A stretch of DNA of 42,472 nt, taken from the NCBI GenBank assembly GCA_027460465.1, contig JAPZAV010000174.1, forward strand, positions 1 through 42,472, given 5' to 3'. Position 1 is the stretch's first letter. The number at the start of each line of letters is the position of its first letter. Shown in pieces: positions 22,102 through 42,472 of this stretch. Below the pieces are notes generated by a model, which worked only from the letters and a program-made list of their open reading frames with translations, had not been told where the DNA came from and did no database searches. The DNA is from Candidatus Methanoperedens sp. GTDB lineage: Archaea > Halobacteriota > Methanosarcinia > Methanosarcinales > Methanoperedenaceae. The position numbers were made by a program, and so were the translations under genes.

Positions 22102-23241
22102 ATGCCTTTTCACGTGATGCTGGTCCCTACTTTAGGCTGTCCTTCCAAATGCAGCTATTGCTGGAGTTCAGAGGAAGGATCTCCTGTAATGAGCATCGAG
22201 ACCATCAAAGAAGTGGTAGAATGGCTCAGGGATTTCAGGGATGATCCTGTCACCTTTACCTTTCATGGCGGCGAGCCGCTCCTGGCAGGCGCGGATTTTT
22301 ACAGGAAAGCTCTGCCACTGCTGGCAGAGGGTTTAAGTAATCTGAGTCCCGCATTCGCTCTTCAGACCAATCTCTGGAAGATGACCCCGGAACTTGCCGG
22401 GATCCTTGCGGAGTATGATATTCCCATCGGTTCCAGTCTGGATGGTCCGGAGGAGCTTAATGACATGCAGAGAGGAAAAGGATACTATAAGAAGACTATG
22501 CGGGGATATGAAATTGCCAGGGCAGCAGGTCTCAAGGTGAGCTTCATCTGTACCTTCACCTCCCATTCTGTAAGGTTCAGGGAGGATATTTTCAATTTTT
22601 TTCTGGAGAACGGTCTGACTCTCAAATTACATCCTGCACTGCCGTCGATGCGTTCCGAAAACCCTGGAAAATGGGCTCTTGATCCAGAAGAGTATGGAGA
22701 ATTGCTGGTTTATCTTCTGGACAAATATCTGGAAAACATGGGCAGGATCGAAATAATGAATATCGACCACCTGTGCAAATGTGTGTTCACCAGTCGAGGC
22801 ACTGTGTGCACTTTCGTGGATTGTATGGGTGATACCTTTGCTGTTGGACCGGATGGGAGCATATATCCATGCTATCGTTTTGTAGGCATGCCGGAATATG
22901 TTATGGGCAATGTTCACGACCATCCTGGCAGGGAGGATCTTGCCAGGTCCCGTGCATGGAAGCTCATGTTCCAGTTCAAGGAATACGTGGACAGGGAATG
23001 CGGAGGATGCAACTACATCAAATTTTGCCGGGGTGGATGCCCCTACAATGCCATGGCACCTGCTGAAGGTGAAATAAAGGGCGTAGACCCACACTGTACT
23101 GCTTATAAGAGGATATTCAAAGAAATAACTGACAGGTGGGAGAAGGAGTTCCTTGGAGGCTCAGGTATGTTCGGCTTTCAACCAGAACCCGGGAAGGACG
23201 CTAGGCCGGGAATAATGTCCTTAATGCTCAAACGCCTCTGA
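22102..23241 (+). CDS. Radical SAM/SPASM enzyme, probable peptide or protein modifier
   Basis: A 379-residue radical SAM protein. The 4Fe-4S cluster that cleaves SAM is bound by Cys13, Cys17 and Cys20 (CPSKCSYC); the SAM-contacting FHGGEPLL follows near 54-61. The C-terminal SPASM region shows many cysteines, including CTFVDC, YPCYRF, ECGGCNYIKFCRGGCPYNA and DPHCTAY, expected to bind two auxiliary clusters. This architecture is found in sulfatase maturases and in enzymes that modify ribosomally made peptides. From memory it resembles the methanogen Mhun_1560-type family (TIGR04083). I find no Cys-rich precursor peptide beside it, so the substrate is unknown. Confidence 0.85.
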   Translation: MPFHVMLVPTLGCPSKCSYCWSSEEGSPVMSIETIKEVVEWLRDFRDDPVTFTFHGGEPLLAGADFYRKALPLLAEGLSNLSPAFALQTNLWKMTPELAGILAEYDIPIGSSLDGPEELNDMQRGKGYYKKTMRGYEIARAAGLKVSFICTFTSHSVRFREDIFNFFLENGLTLKLHPALPSMRSENPGKWALDPEEYGELLVYLLDKYLENMGRIEIMNIDHLCKCVFTSRGTVCTFVDCMGDTFAVGPDGSIYPCYRFVGMPEYVMGNVHDHPGREDLARSRAWKLMFQFKEYVDRECGGCNYIKFCRGGCPYNAMAPAEGEIKGVDPHCTAYKRIFKEITDRWEKEFLGGSGMFGFQPEPGKDARPGIMSLMLKRL

Positions 23242-23248
23242 GTCCGGG

Positions 23249-23395
23249 CTATTCATGTTTTTTTATTAAGATCCCTTTATTGCAAAGCGTTTCTTCAATT
23301 TCCACGCTATCTTTAAGATTAAATTTTTCTATTAGATCTTTGGGAATTGTTATTTTACCATCGGAAGTAATTGGTCTGATTATTATTTCTCCCAT
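23249..23395 (-). CDS. AbrB/SpoVT-type swapped-hairpin DNA-binding protein
   Basis: A 48-residue protein starting at MGEIIIRPITSDGKITIPKD, a clear AbrB/MazE-type beta hairpin (the G-K-I-T-I-P-k core), and ending in VEIEETLCNKGILIKK. The frame is open 63 codons further upstream, but that part overlaps the divergent PAS gene and reads as non-coding, so the internal ATG at 23395 is chosen. Such domains bind DNA as dimers, either as chromosomal regulators or as antitoxins. No toxin gene is beside it. Confidence 0.65.
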   Translation of the reverse strand: MGEIIIRPITSDGKITIPKDLIEKFNLKDSVEIEETLCNKGILIKKHE

Positions 23396-23504
23396 GAAGT
23401 CAATATTAAATCCAAAGGTAGATAAGTATTTTTGGTAGACCCGATAGTTATATCTGAAAGTTTCGCAATCAAAAGCGATAAGCCATAAAACCTCTGGTCT
23501 GTAC

Positions 23505-24965
23505 ATGAAAAAAGAAAAAGGCAAGCTTGAGGTACTGCTTAGCAGACCTAAAGAGAAATTATATGAACTTGAGAAATATCTCAAAATGATACTTGAGTCA
23601 TCCCTTGATGGAATAACTGTGGTGGATGAGCTGGGAAGTTTTGAATTCGGGAACGATTCGTTTTATAAGATAATCGGCTGGCCGAGGGAGGAAATAATCG
23701 GCCAGAACTTCATGAAAATGATCCCGGAAGATGCGAAAGAATCCGCGATGCGCCACTGGCAAAATGTTCAAAGTGATCATGGAGGACCCCATGAGATCAA
23801 AATAAAAACACAACATGGTGAAATAAAATATCTCCATGTGTCGAGTTCATTGACAGAAATCGGAGGTGAGATGAAAGTGGTGGCTATTGTTCATGATATC
23901 TCTGAAAAAAAGACGCTTGAAATAAAGCTTAGAGAATCTATGGAAAGATACAGGGATCTCTTTGAGAACGCAATCGTCCCCATGTACGTTCTCGATGCTG
24001 AGGGATACGTTTTGCAGATGAACAAAGCCGGGATTCAGATACTCGGGTGTACTGAAGAAGAAGTCATCGGCACGAACATATTTCAATGGCTCACACCAGA
24101 GAGCCGAAAAATCGGCAGACTGAACCAGAAAAAGAAACTTTCAGGCGAACCCGTGGACCAGCCGGTGACCCTTGAGATAATCAATAAGCATGGAGAGCAG
24201 CGATGGGTTGAGATAGAAACAAGCGACCTCAGAGGCGATGGCAGGATAAAAGAAGTGCATGGCATAGCCAAGGATATAACTGAAAAAAAGAGACTGGAAG
24301 AAGAACTGAGAAGATCCGAGGCACGATACAGGGACCTGTTTGAGAATGCGATCGTCCCCATGTATATACTCGATACCAGAGGTAACATCTTTAAAATAAA
24401 TAAGGTCGGATCCCGGATGCTCGGCTGTGCAGAGGATGAGGCTATTAACACCAACATGTCAAAATGGCTCACACCAGCAAGCCTTGAAATGGTAAGAGAG
24501 CGCCAGGAAAAATTATTCTCAGAAAAAAATGTGAGTCCAGCAGCCGTCATTGAGTTCGTAAGCAAAAATGGTGAACACAGATGGGCAGAAATAACATCAA
24601 GGGTCATCAAAGATGGCGACAGGATGATAGAAATCCACGGCATTGGAAGGGATATTACTGAGAATATAATGCTGAAACAACAGATAAAGAAATCCAATAA
24701 AACGCTGAAACTCCTGTGCTATCTGATCGAGGGAACGCGCGGGGGAAAGACCCGCGCATTGATCTTAAAACATCTTTCTGAACGATCGTATAATGCGCAC
24801 CAATTGGCAGTGATCCTGAATATAGATTATAAGACTTCCAGGCATCATCTTGATGTTTTAGTAAAAAATGGAATAATCAGTATGAAGAGGAATGGAAGAA
24901 GCAGTGCGATATATTTTCTTTCAAAGAATGTTGCAGAAAGTCTGTATTCTTTTCAGGATGTCTGA
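23505..24965 (+). CDS. Triple-PAS sensor with C-terminal winged-helix domain
   Basis: A 486-residue one-component sensor. PAS1 spans about 27-140, PAS2 about 147-262, PAS3 about 273-390; each ends with the PAC-type D-I-[ST]-E motif (HDISEKK, KDITEKK, RDITENI). PAS2 and PAS3 are near copies: both begin RYRDLFENAIVPMY and contain the WLTP motif, so they stem from a recent internal duplication. The C-terminal 90 residues form an ArsR-like winged helix (ALILKHLSERSYNAHQLAVILNIDYKTSRHHLDVLVKNGIIS). No histidine kinase domain is present, so the signal probably acts directly on DNA binding. The ligand is unknown. Confidence 0.85.
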   Translation: MKKEKGKLEVLLSRPKEKLYELEKYLKMILESSLDGITVVDELGSFEFGNDSFYKIIGWPREEIIGQNFMKMIPEDAKESAMRHWQNVQSDHGGPHEIKIKTQHGEIKYLHVSSSLTEIGGEMKVVAIVHDISEKKTLEIKLRESMERYRDLFENAIVPMYVLDAEGYVLQMNKAGIQILGCTEEEVIGTNIFQWLTPESRKIGRLNQKKKLSGEPVDQPVTLEIINKHGEQRWVEIETSDLRGDGRIKEVHGIAKDITEKKRLEEELRRSEARYRDLFENAIVPMYILDTRGNIFKINKVGSRMLGCAEDEAINTNMSKWLTPASLEMVRERQEKLFSEKNVSPAAVIEFVSKNGEHRWAEITSRVIKDGDRMIEIHGIGRDITENIMLKQQIKKSNKTLKLLCYLIEGTRGGKTRALILKHLSERSYNAHQLAVILNIDYKTSRHHLDVLVKNGIISMKRNGRSSAIYFLSKNVAESLYSFQDV

Positions 24966-39523: not shown

Positions 39524-41005
39524 TCACTCTGCAATCCTGACCTCTGTGTTCCTGGTAATGAGCAGATTGAAGGAGGAAAATTCCCTGCTCTCCCTGACCA
39601 GAGTGCCGAAGATCTCAACTATATCGCCGTACCCTGCCTCCAGGAGAGCGCTGTTGCTCTCGCTCCTGTGATATGACGGCATCACAGCATAGGACGGAAC
39701 AGAGGTTGTGGCGTCGCAGATCTTGAACACGAAGTGCTTTTCATCTCCCAGGTTCCCTGACATGACAGCTGCCGCAACATTGATCCTTTTTTCGATGTGT
39801 TTTTTCAGGTTTGAAAGCCTGACGAACTTTCCTTTTGCCCGATAGGTATGCCCTGCGGCGCCGTTTTTCCTGAGCACTGCATATGAGAATTTCATGTCAA
39901 TGTTCAGATATCTGTATGCTTCTTCGGTTCTGGCGATCTTTTTCATGAATTCCGGAACCTGGATATTCCCTGCATCCAGAAAACTCCAGCAGTTCTCACC
40001 GCTGCACTTCAGTCCCCAGATATAAGTGCACGGGCTGAAAAGGCTGAAACCTTTTCTGACAAGAGCCTGCTGTGTGATGCGAAGCGCTTTAGAATTAACA
40101 AGGTTAGCGGGCTCTATGATGACGATCGTCGGATTGCTGCTTCGAAGGGTGAGCCTTTCAACTGTATCGGCGCGCCCGGAAGGCGTGGCTTTCATCTCTG
40201 CAAGTACATTTGAGAATACCATGAGATCTGCGCCTTCAGGCGCTTTCGCTCTCTCCACAGGCACATGATAAGGTTTGTTCACTGTGATGATGGCATTCTC
40301 TGGAGCGAATTTCTGGAGATAAGTAGATACAAGCTCGCTGTAGCAGTCAATATTCTCCTGCGCCTGCTCGATAGAGTCTATCCTGATATTCATTTTCACA
40401 TCCATGTTCTTCTTTGAGTAAATATCCAGCAATTTATTGAGAAAATCAATGGTGCTCAGGGTGATCGTCCCGGGACCTGAGCCTGCATCAATGATGCTCA
40501 TCCTGTTCGAAAGCAGCCCGCTTTTGAAGAGGTGGAGCAGCACATACTGGAACTGGCAGAAATAGACAGGGAAATGGTAAAGAAGATAGGATATGATCCT
40601 TATTCCGGGATACTTCGATATCCCTTTCCAGTACTCCTCCTTCTGCTTCACGATATTCTTTCGTATCAGCTCAGCAGTATCACCTTCATACCAGTTCTTG
40701 CCGCAGGATCTCTCGATGTACGAGCTGATCAGGTTCTCCATGCGCAGAGGGAGTCCGGGTGTCTTGAAATGCTTCTCAAGTTCCCTGATCACAGGCTCAT
40801 CGGCAGGGAGCGCAAGCTTTTCGAGCTTTGTGCAATTATAGCCTGTATCGCAGAAGAGATCGAGGTCAAAAAGATAAGGTCGCAATATCTCATAGAGCTC
40901 TTTTTCACCGTATTTCCTGCTGAGATACTGGTTCATCTCAGAAAGAGCAAACTCGGCGCGGGAGGAAGCAAGGAATTTAGCGAGGGAGAGGATTTCGGAG
41001 GTCAT
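39524..41005 (-). CDS. Rsm22-like SAM-dependent methyltransferase with C-terminal OB-like domain
   Basis: A 493-residue protein. Residues about 1-165 are helical; the SAM-binding loop SIIDAGSGPGT lies at 170-180; the post-strand-four motif is DLMVFSNVLAEMK and the next PTIVIIEPANLVNSKALR, as in the Rsm22/METTL17 family that modifies or helps assemble the small ribosomal subunit. Cysteines near CTYIWGLKCSGENCWSF resemble its metal or Fe-S site. The last about 100 residues (HFVFKICDATTSVPSYAVMP through IVEIFGTLVRES) look like an OB-fold nucleic-acid binder. The substrate RNA is unknown. Confidence 0.72.
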   Translation of the reverse strand: MTSEILSLAKFLASSRAEFALSEMNQYLSRKYGEKELYEILRPYLFDLDLFCDTGYNCTKLEKLALPADEPVIRELEKHFKTPGLPLRMENLISSYIERSCGKNWYEGDTAELIRKNIVKQKEEYWKGISKYPGIRIISYLLYHFPVYFCQFQYVLLHLFKSGLLSNRMSIIDAGSGPGTITLSTIDFLNKLLDIYSKKNMDVKMNIRIDSIEQAQENIDCYSELVSTYLQKFAPENAIITVNKPYHVPVERAKAPEGADLMVFSNVLAEMKATPSGRADTVERLTLRSSNPTIVIIEPANLVNSKALRITQQALVRKGFSLFSPCTYIWGLKCSGENCWSFLDAGNIQVPEFMKKIARTEEAYRYLNIDMKFSYAVLRKNGAAGHTYRAKGKFVRLSNLKKHIEKRINVAAAVMSGNLGDEKHFVFKICDATTSVPSYAVMPSYHRSESNSALLEAGYGDIVEIFGTLVRESREFSSFNLLITRNTEVRIAE

Positions 41006-41046
41006 GGATGAGAGTCAATACCAATAACGAGCGAACCGCAGATAAA

Positions 41047-41243
41047 GGCGCCCAGAGTCACGGACCTCCCGAGTTGCGCCTCGGGAGGGCGCACACACGT
41101 ATGGCTCGCGCCATACGTGGATACCAAGTCGAGAAGCGTAGCTTTCGGAGCCGGCGTGTACACGTATTGCTTCGCAATACGTGTTGTGTGGGAGTCGAGA
41201 ACCGTTAGGTTTCGGTGGTAGAACCTGCAGGGTTTCGGCATTG
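41047..41243 (+). repeat. Block of covarying hairpin repeats
   Basis: Hairpin A: nine bases, 41065-41073 with 41080-41088. Hairpin B: ten bases, 41096-41105 with 41110-41119. Hairpin C: eleven bases, 41160-41170 with 41174-41184. B and C head two units of about 65 bases (from 41096 and 41161): each starts CACGTAT, and each later contains AGTCGAGAA followed by a small stem-loop and TTTCGG. The units differ in a base-pair-preserving way: TATGGC/GCCATA against TATTGC/GCAATA, and AAGC/GCTT against AACC/GGTT. A third AGAACC-TTTCGG motif follows at 41220-41238. No reading frame explains this. Confidence 0.7.
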
Positions 41244-41568
41244 ATGAACGCAGATTTGCAGAATTTGTTTGGAAAAACATTATTTTCATTTGTATACTTT
41301 ACGCGAATGTAAATATAACTCTTGTTGATTTCTGAAAATACCTTCGCCACCACTATATCAATGAGATAAGATTAACTCCTGGCAGATCGCATGTTGTTTC
41401 GATTTATCCCGAAGCATTGTCATTGCATTGTCATCGGTTAAGATCACCATTAATCCCTAGATCGCTCTCTATTGACATGAGAATCAAGTGCCTGGCTCTG
41501 ATAAACATTCATTACATTCTCAAAGGTTCTCTCACATCCATTTCCGACCGAGCCGTGATAAGCAGCTT

Positions 41569-41670
41569 GGCGCCCAGAGTTTCACACCTCTCGAACTGCG
41601 CCTCGGCGCGTCCACGTATTGCTTCTTGATAAGTATTGTATGGAAGGCGAGGGAACCCAGAGTCATGCTT
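41569..41670 (+). repeat. Degenerate second copy of the hairpin repeat
   Basis: GGCGCCCAGAGT (41569-41580) is identical to 41047-41058; TGCGCCTCGG (41597-41606) matches 41075-41084; CACGTATTGCTTC (41613-41625) matches 41161-41173. The order is the same but the stems are decayed (CTCTCGA instead of CTCCCGAG, and the 3' arm of hairpin C is mutated and partly lost). A third CCCAGAGTCA lies at 41656-41665. The stretch from 41244 to 41568 between the copies holds no gene I can support. Confidence 0.6.
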
Positions 41671-41685
41671 CAAAACATAGAAAAA

Positions 41686-41693
41686 TTTATTAA
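41686..41693 (+). promoter_or_regulatory. TATA box of the last gene
   Basis: TTTATTAA at 41686-41693 lies about 27 bases before 41716, the GTG codon proposed as start, so the message would be leaderless. Confidence 0.5.
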
Positions 41694-41715
41694 TAATCGA
41701 ATTTTTTAGATAACT

Positions 41716-42472
41716 GTGGGATACGAAGGAATGTTCAAAGACCCGGACGCCAGGGTACCATTCGCAGTCATAGGCATCTTTCTCATCATTATCTCGGTTC
41801 TTGCATCCATCAACCTCACAAGGATGGATATCAACATGGCAAAAACAATGTCCTCAGGGCTTGAGATCTCTTCTGCAGACACGGCGATGCAGTACGCAAG
41901 AGCAGACATTGCACGCGCCATCAACTATGCAGGTATGGAAGCGCTGAAGCAACTTGGAAAAACTCCGCTCATAAGCCCTGACATCAACAGCACCTACCAT
42001 GCAGAAGATCCAGAAGAATCCAGCAGGAAATGGGCAAAAGCGATGATCCAGAACACGCTGAACCAGTACATCGAATCCAATTACATGTACGATACCTTTG
42101 TGAACAACGGAATTGCGGTAAACATAGACGAAGCCGGGGATGAGATCGCAATACAAACGATCAGCATGGATCTGGAAAGGAGTATAGAGCCGCCGCTTTT
42201 CAATCCTGGAAAAAGCAGGGGATACTCCACATACTGGAAGATCTCTGTACCCCTCACCCTGCATCTGAAAGATCTGAGAACAGGCACTGAACTCATGACC
42301 AGGAACGAAACCATACAAACAGTGATCACCTCAAGATACCCGCTCTTAAAAGATCTCACGGACGAATACAGCGAGAGATTGAACGGAACCAATGCTGTCA
42401 TGGCAGAGACCACAGCCTTTTCCATGGCATACACATGGGGACGGGGATACCTTCAGTACTCAAAAACCACGC
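41716..42472 (+). CDS. Membrane-anchored hypothetical protein, partial (runs off the window)
   Basis: An open frame of at least 252 codons that continues past the window end. The N terminus GYEGMFKDPDARVPFAVIGIFLIIISVLASINLTRMD contains one membrane helix (about 15-34) near the start, preceded by a short basic/acidic segment, as in pilin-like or pseudopilin-associated archaeal surface proteins. The rest is an ordinary soluble domain with many Asn/Thr (ADTAMQYARADIARAINYAGMEAL, then strands SMDLERSIEPPLFNPG and STYWKISVPLTLHLKDL), probably outside the cell. I do not recognise the family. The GTG at 41716 fits the TATA box; the ATG at 41731 is the alternative. Confidence 0.7.
   Translation, partial: MGYEGMFKDPDARVPFAVIGIFLIIISVLASINLTRMDINMAKTMSSGLEISSADTAMQYARADIARAINYAGMEALKQLGKTPLISPDINSTYHAEDPEESSRKWAKAMIQNTLNQYIESNYMYDTFVNNGIAVNIDEAGDEIAIQTISMDLERSIEPPLFNPGKSRGYSTYWKISVPLTLHLKDLRTGTELMTRNETIQTVITSRYPLLKDLTDEYSERLNGTNAVMAETTAFSMAYTWGRGYLQYSKTT

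Follow-up and report, generated by a model that had tools for sequence, protein, structure and literature searches.

The window (the whole stretch of 42,472 nucleotides that was analysed) belongs to a MAG of Candidatus Methanoperedens (2.87 Mb, 176 contigs). Among named records, its genes have their nearest relatives in Methanoperedens, and it encodes acetyl-CoA decarbonylase/synthase and further archaeal C1 genes. The window holds a hairpin array of about 200 bp, placed between an Rsm22-like gene (minus strand) and a DUF7286 gene (plus strand). The array lies upstream of the Rsm22-like gene and interrupts a 10-bp tandem repeat (CGCAGATNAA). The features of this region are as follows.

39524..41005, minus strand: Rsm22-like gene (493 aa), starting 28 bp away from the repeat and serving as anchor for the comparison of orthologous sites
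41034..41046, plus strand: AACCGCAGATAAA, left-hand unit of the 10-bp tandem repeat (CGCAGATNAA) that the array interrupts
about 41047..41242, plus strand: hairpin array, an inserted mosaic of palindromic modules (from the filled and empty sites and the dispersed copies)
41065..41088, plus strand: hairpin 1, CCTCCCGAG-TTGCGC-CTCGGGAGG, 9 bp (direct reading; part of the fold)
41096..41119, plus strand: hairpin 2a, CACGTATGGC-TCGC-GCCATACGTG, 10 bp (direct reading; model R1)
41134..41144, plus strand: linker mini-hairpin AAGC-GTA-GCTT (direct reading)
41160..41184, plus strand: hairpin 2b, ACACGTATTGC-TTC-GCAATACGTGT, 11 bp (direct reading)
41200..41238, plus strand: tail mini-hairpins AACC-GTTA-GGTT and AACCTGCAGGGTT, with TCGG after each (direct reading)
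41243..41256, plus strand: GATGAACGCAGATT, what is left of the CGCAGAT repeat on the right of the array
41569..41662, plus strand: second, decayed array copy, its stems broken, 79-82% to the first copy
41716..42472 in the window, plus strand: DUF7286 gene (Pfam PF23957, 4.5e-9), the right-hand neighbour, which runs off the window

Direct reading confirmed the three perfect hairpins of 9, 10 and 11 bp reported in the first-pass annotation, as well as the 65-base spacing of the units and the paired changes between them (TATGGC/GCCATA to TATTGC/GCAATA, and AAGC/GCTT to AACC/GGTT). R1, a covariance model of the hairpin, matched hairpin 2a at G000:C174:41091-41125 (E 4.7e-10; G000 is the window genome), and the fold of the 227-nt region beat all 200 of 200 dinucleotide shuffles (z of -3.6 as RNA and -4.1 as DNA). 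The tail module recurs across many genomes (89-97%). The Rsm22-like gene matched Pfam PF09243 weakly (E 1.2e-4, narrowly below the cut-off) and has relatives of 63-71% identity in 29 other Methanoperedens genomes. The decayed copy, 330 bp from the window array, indicates by its broken stems that not every array copy is maintained. On another contig of the same genome (G000:C123), an array occupies the place corresponding to the decayed copy, and the DUF7286 gene start beside it is 95% identical to that of the window (G000:C123:1-1028, locus L002, and window positions 41673-42472). Since the homology ends near the array edge in both copies, the array marks a duplication breakpoint or a strain variant.

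The site upstream of rsm22 occurs in both filled and empty states. In seven species it carries an uninterrupted AACCGCAGATNAACGCAGAT(NAACGCAGAT) repeat of double or triple units; empty sites are found with point changes in G005, G007 and G016, and with two units in G001. It is filled, after the first unit, in the window genome, G013 and G044, with arrays of differing contents; in most other species the repeat is missing from this site. The filled state requires, in the tree of Rsm22 proteins, three changes when set against all other rows, and two when the filled and empty rows are taken alone; it was therefore acquired or lost on more than one occasion. Arrays are therefore present or absent at orthologous sites, in the manner of organellar palindromic elements, and those occupying the same site in different species vary in the number and kind of their units.

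In its own genome the array gave 31 BLAST matches, falling in about 20 places. Exact hairpins of the form CACGTAT-N5..20-ATACGTG numbered 23 in this genome and were found in 29 of the 31 congeneric species, against zero or one match per genome for the reversed pattern used as a control. The structure-aware search proposed in the first-pass annotation, performed with R1, detected the family in 30 of the 31 congeners and in two of the three sister-genus genomes; for this purpose presence alone was used, because the R1 match numbers are minimum counts covering both strands of a palindrome. Over the rest of the order (186 genomes of the order were searched with R1) there was one weak match, in a single genome, and the family is essentially absent from the order outside Methanoperedens and its sister genus. 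As the modules recur in about 30 separately assembled genomes, the hairpins are not an assembly artefact, an objection that the first-pass annotation had raised against itself. The searched phages and plasmids held no array copies, the 11 pattern matches in IMG/VR being due to chance, as judged from their stems and flanks. Our literature search returned no account of this hairpin-array repeat in Methanoperedens.

The modules obey a definable grammar. In the orientation of the window, the usual order is hairpin 1, hairpin 2, linker and tail units. The loop of hairpin 1 is TTGCGC, TCGCGC or TCACGC across the family; hairpin 2 keeps its outer CACGTAT/ATACGTG constant while its inner stem and loop vary; and the tail units read GAGAACC-GTTA-GGTTTCGG or GAACCCGCAGGGTTTCGG. 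In other species hairpin 2 is joined to different palindromes, such as ATAAAGCGACACCTCGCTTTAT and CGACTGTCACGCCAGTCG. Some arrays consist of tandem 57- or 76-bp repeats that reach contig ends (L254-L256 in G040; L260-L261 in G047), which suggests the existence of longer arrays that break assemblies and may explain assembly breaks in Methanoperedens genomes. By a rough ORF criterion, 72-77% of the hairpins are intergenic, versus about 30-35% of random positions; this share was computed with the longer frames, as short spurious frames cross the GC-rich arrays. The genes beside the arrays are in tandem, convergent and divergent arrangements.

The paired substitutions of the window proved to be a property of the whole family. 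In 20 diverse hairpins, chosen by hand, both partners change in six of the ten stem pairs and a lone partner in none, with a covariation score exceeding 500 of 500 shuffles and every slid control. Among 48 distinct hairpins found by the model (480 cells), we counted 35 both-side changes, three G.T, no A.C and three other non-pairs. At the second inner pair, 26 of them have G-C and 22 have C-G, so that 48 of 48 are paired, where 24 are expected; in the pattern-based sample the paired cases are 58 of 61 (31 expected). Because the CACGTAT pattern used for searching sets seven outer pairs in advance, it exaggerates the conservation of the outer stem, which also changes in matched pairs (CACATAT/ATATGTG in G040; CGCATAT/ATATGCG in L008). 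GN(N)A loops were considered as a sign of strand-specific selection on single-stranded DNA and rejected, their orientation being mixed (23 vs 10) and most loops being of other types.

The hairpins also flip in place. In 18 comparisons, with flanks at least 80% identical and in the same orientation, a whole hairpin is reverse-complemented in place, and the same set, in which comparisons share sequences and hence are not independent, holds three both-side stem changes and no one-sided change. The inverted loops are GAA/TTC, GGA/TCC, CGCA/TGCG and GCA/TGC. At one orthologous site, two species with about 82% identical flanks on either side carry GCCC-CGCA-GGGC and GCCC-TGCG-GGGC, respectively, one of them having an extra unit of about 70 bp. 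Loops are thus inverted between perfect arms in an otherwise unchanged sequence. Template switching between the arms of an inverted repeat is known to homogenise them, to produce compensatory changes and to leave spacers inverted (PMC8794818; PMC8604942); ttc-to-gaa inversions are listed among its products, and spacers are inverted only on arms of more than 9 bp (PMC8604942). The arrays share with these quasipalindrome mutations the homogenised arms, the paired changes and loops that are inverted while the arms beside them, about 10 bp long, are perfect. They differ in that template switching is a mutational process rather than an element, and that the known cases concern isolated inverted repeats, whereas in the present case an entire family of mobile repeats would be affected. 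Arm homogenisation together with loop inversion being the published footprint of template switching, the covariation is by itself no proof that RNA or single-stranded DNA is under selection, and the conservation of structure is owed, at least in part, to a mutation mechanism. Compensatory base changes are routinely taken as proof of a functional RNA structure; in this family the mutational alternative can be measured, because the paired changes coincide with in-place inversion in hundreds of hairpins from about 30 species.

As to where the arrays lie, a CGCAGAT unit was located no more than 200 bp away for 62 of the 132 hairpins whose flanks were long enough (8% for random positions), and 36 of the 132 sit inside an interrupted repeat, with CGCAGAT units in the same direction on both sides. 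These CGCAGAT arrays occur as facing pairs. All ten inspected GxxExxY (PF13366) genes have an array of 10-bp units just upstream, and seven have a facing array within about 200 bp downstream; the units are of three types (CGCAGATNAA, CGCAAAG and ACAGAG). The CGCAGAT arrays are the terminal inverted repeats around GxxExxY (PDDEXK_3) genes, and the loci so bounded (L244-L253, also L224-L234) look like very small nuclease-encoding mobile elements, which would explain the widespread ATCTGCGTTCATCTGCGG-type repeats. In one of them, L253, a hairpin array sits within the left repeat of a GxxExxY element that seems intact. The bounding CGCAGAT sequence is that of another mobile element, and not the hairpin array's own end; in the window, the array would interrupt a relic of the terminal inverted repeat of such an element. 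Flanking direct repeats unique to the locus occur at only 11 of 139 arrays, and, their lengths being scattered (14, 17, 24 and 104 bp), they follow no target-site-duplication rule. Those of L170 (24 bp), L128 (14 bp), L204 (17 bp) and L090 (104 bp) are possible target duplications of variable length.

A second kind of receiving place is the HEARO omega-RNA (RF02033) that adjoins RRXRR/HNH (IscB) genes. At two loci, namely L032 in G022 and a place in G004 represented by both L105 and L029, such HEAROs (L105:1313-1614, also in L029 and L032) score above the Rfam threshold and hold an 88-nt variable region. In an alignment of 12 HEARO copies, those of G022 and G004 carry, in one stem, a 78-nt insert exactly between TTAAACAG and AGAGGAAACTCT, composed of a mini-hairpin, hairpin 2 and a hairpin 1-like module; eight other copies are empty, and two, from G040, carry a longer array of the same kind. 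Some arrays thus lie inside this RNA, inserted at the hairpin of a long stem, and the omega-RNA of an RNA-guided nuclease is shown to accept a 78-nt hairpin insert. The array is nonetheless distinct from HEARO, as an insert of 78 nt or more that most HEARO copies lack, most arrays being unrelated to HEARO.

From these lines of evidence, we propose that the window hairpins represent a single copy of a family of palindromic DNA modules that is mobile, mosaic and specific to Methanoperedenaceae, and probably shaped by template switching. Template switching at the replication fork would mainly keep the stems perfect and invert the loops, so that perfect pairing need not be selected, and the arrays, being non-autonomous DNA, would spread to sites where inverted repeats are tolerated or already exist, such as terminal inverted repeats and hairpin tips. 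Several points weigh against this proposal. First, no candidate mobilising enzyme tracks the hairpin counts. Second, clean target-site duplications are absent at most sites. Third, recombination between modules could likewise swap both arms at once. Fourth, the pairwise comparisons depend on one another, and seven outer pairs are imposed by the pattern used in the search. Fifth, selection or protein binding could lie behind the strong retention of CACGTAT/ATACGTG throughout the genus. A bolder reading, which we put forward only tentatively, is that the arrays form an undescribed class of non-autonomous archaeal elements, whose structure- or repeat-directed insertion into GxxExxY terminal inverted repeats and IscB omega-RNA stems would be carried out by an enzyme acting on folded single strands, while template switching would perfect the palindromes.

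The first-pass annotation had taken the paired substitutions as the sign of a structure under selection, possibly a structured non-coding RNA whose helices are held by selection on base pairing. The covariation on which it relied is strong, and the fold is more stable than the shuffles, as such an RNA would predict. However, we consider this explanation unlikely. The one-sided, G.U-type intermediates are nearly absent; the sense strand is not fixed, loops and whole hairpins standing in both orientations within the same flanks; the number and order of modules differ between species at the same site; and Rfam, even at a permissive threshold, gave no family matching the array itself. The flips, the missing intermediates and the decayed copy in the window are what template-switch homogenisation would leave without any function, which weakens the inference of selection.

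The same annotation had also suggested a repeat family like REP/BIME elements. REP/BIMEs are short-loop palindromes gathered in mosaic, mostly intergenic clusters, with tens of copies per genome and variable stems bearing complementary changes (PMC3733652). The Methanoperedens arrays share all these traits and have the BIME-like architecture, being dispersed, largely extragenic mosaics of palindromic modules of variable order and number; copies and relatives are abundant, so this part of the suggestion holds. They differ from REP/BIMEs by their archaeal host, by the several unrelated hairpin classes within a single array, by the in-place flips and by the ordered insertion into the repeats of other elements. 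As for the REP signature, the GTAG or GTGG foot (GT[AG]G within 2 nt of the hairpin foot) was seen at only one of 278 feet, and RAYT subclasses are not observed in Archaea, where only typical IS200 transposases occur (PMC6006769).

It is therefore improbable, in our judgement, that the family is moved in trans by a RAYT or an IS200-type Y1 (HUH) transposase acting on single-stranded hairpins. The transposase search suggested earlier did find Y1_Tnp matches, counted without assignment to a subclass, in 29 of the 31 congeners, and a single fragmentary one near an array (G000:C82, where only short frames occur). Yet the hairpin counts showed no correlation with those of Y1_Tnp (rho 0.03), and G016 is rich in hairpins with no Y1 match at 96% completeness. 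GxxExxY (0.12) and reverse transcriptase (-0.35) were likewise uncorrelated; these rank correlations are rough, being based on the minimum, both-strand R1 match numbers, and none of the three candidate mobilisers fits by copy number.

The nearest known systems in behaviour are the palindromic elements of organelles, i.e., the repetitive hairpin-forming elements of sponge mtDNA, the Volvox palindromes, the double-hairpin elements of Allomyces and the yeast GC clusters (PMC2800124, PMC2670323). Similarly to the arrays, these are non-coding hairpins that spread between genes, in tandem or nested, with complementary stem differences. The arrays differ from them in residing in cellular archaeal genomes, in their longer composite structure and module grammar, and in that filled and empty orthologous sites were found. 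They provide an archaeal counterpart to both BIMEs and the palindromes of organelles, found in a methane oxidiser of environmental importance.

We assign a low probability to a host function, in which CACGTAT/ATACGTG would be a binding or structural site (for a regulator, a nucleoid protein or a terminator) and the arrays amplified binding sites. The almost invariant outer 7 bp, next to a variable inner stem and loop, and the 28 bp separating the window array from a gene start are in keeping with it. Against it, the outer stem does change in matched pairs, its conservation is inflated by the search pattern, array presence differs among orthologous upstream regions, and the neighbouring genes have no common arrangement. 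Finally, the idea that the hairpins are the remains of one mobile element with terminal hairpins, e.g., an IscB/IS200-type element or its omega-RNA, is highly improbable, for although some arrays lie inside the omega-RNAs of IscB loci and several G040 arrays abut IscB copies, most HEARO RNAs of the genus have no insert, 40 further array loci gave no HEARO match at the curated threshold, the window array did not match RF02033, and the window genome has no HEARO match despite its roughly 20 array places.

Two other observations were made in passing. Group II intron ends (RF02012) were found in two array loci (L014:122-272 and L202:740-890), that of L202 lying about 100 bp from a hairpin. Elsewhere in the window, positions 22102-24962 encode a peptide-modifying radical SAM enzyme of the TIGR04083 family and, after it, a multi-PAS protein that carries an ArsR-type helix-turn-helix.
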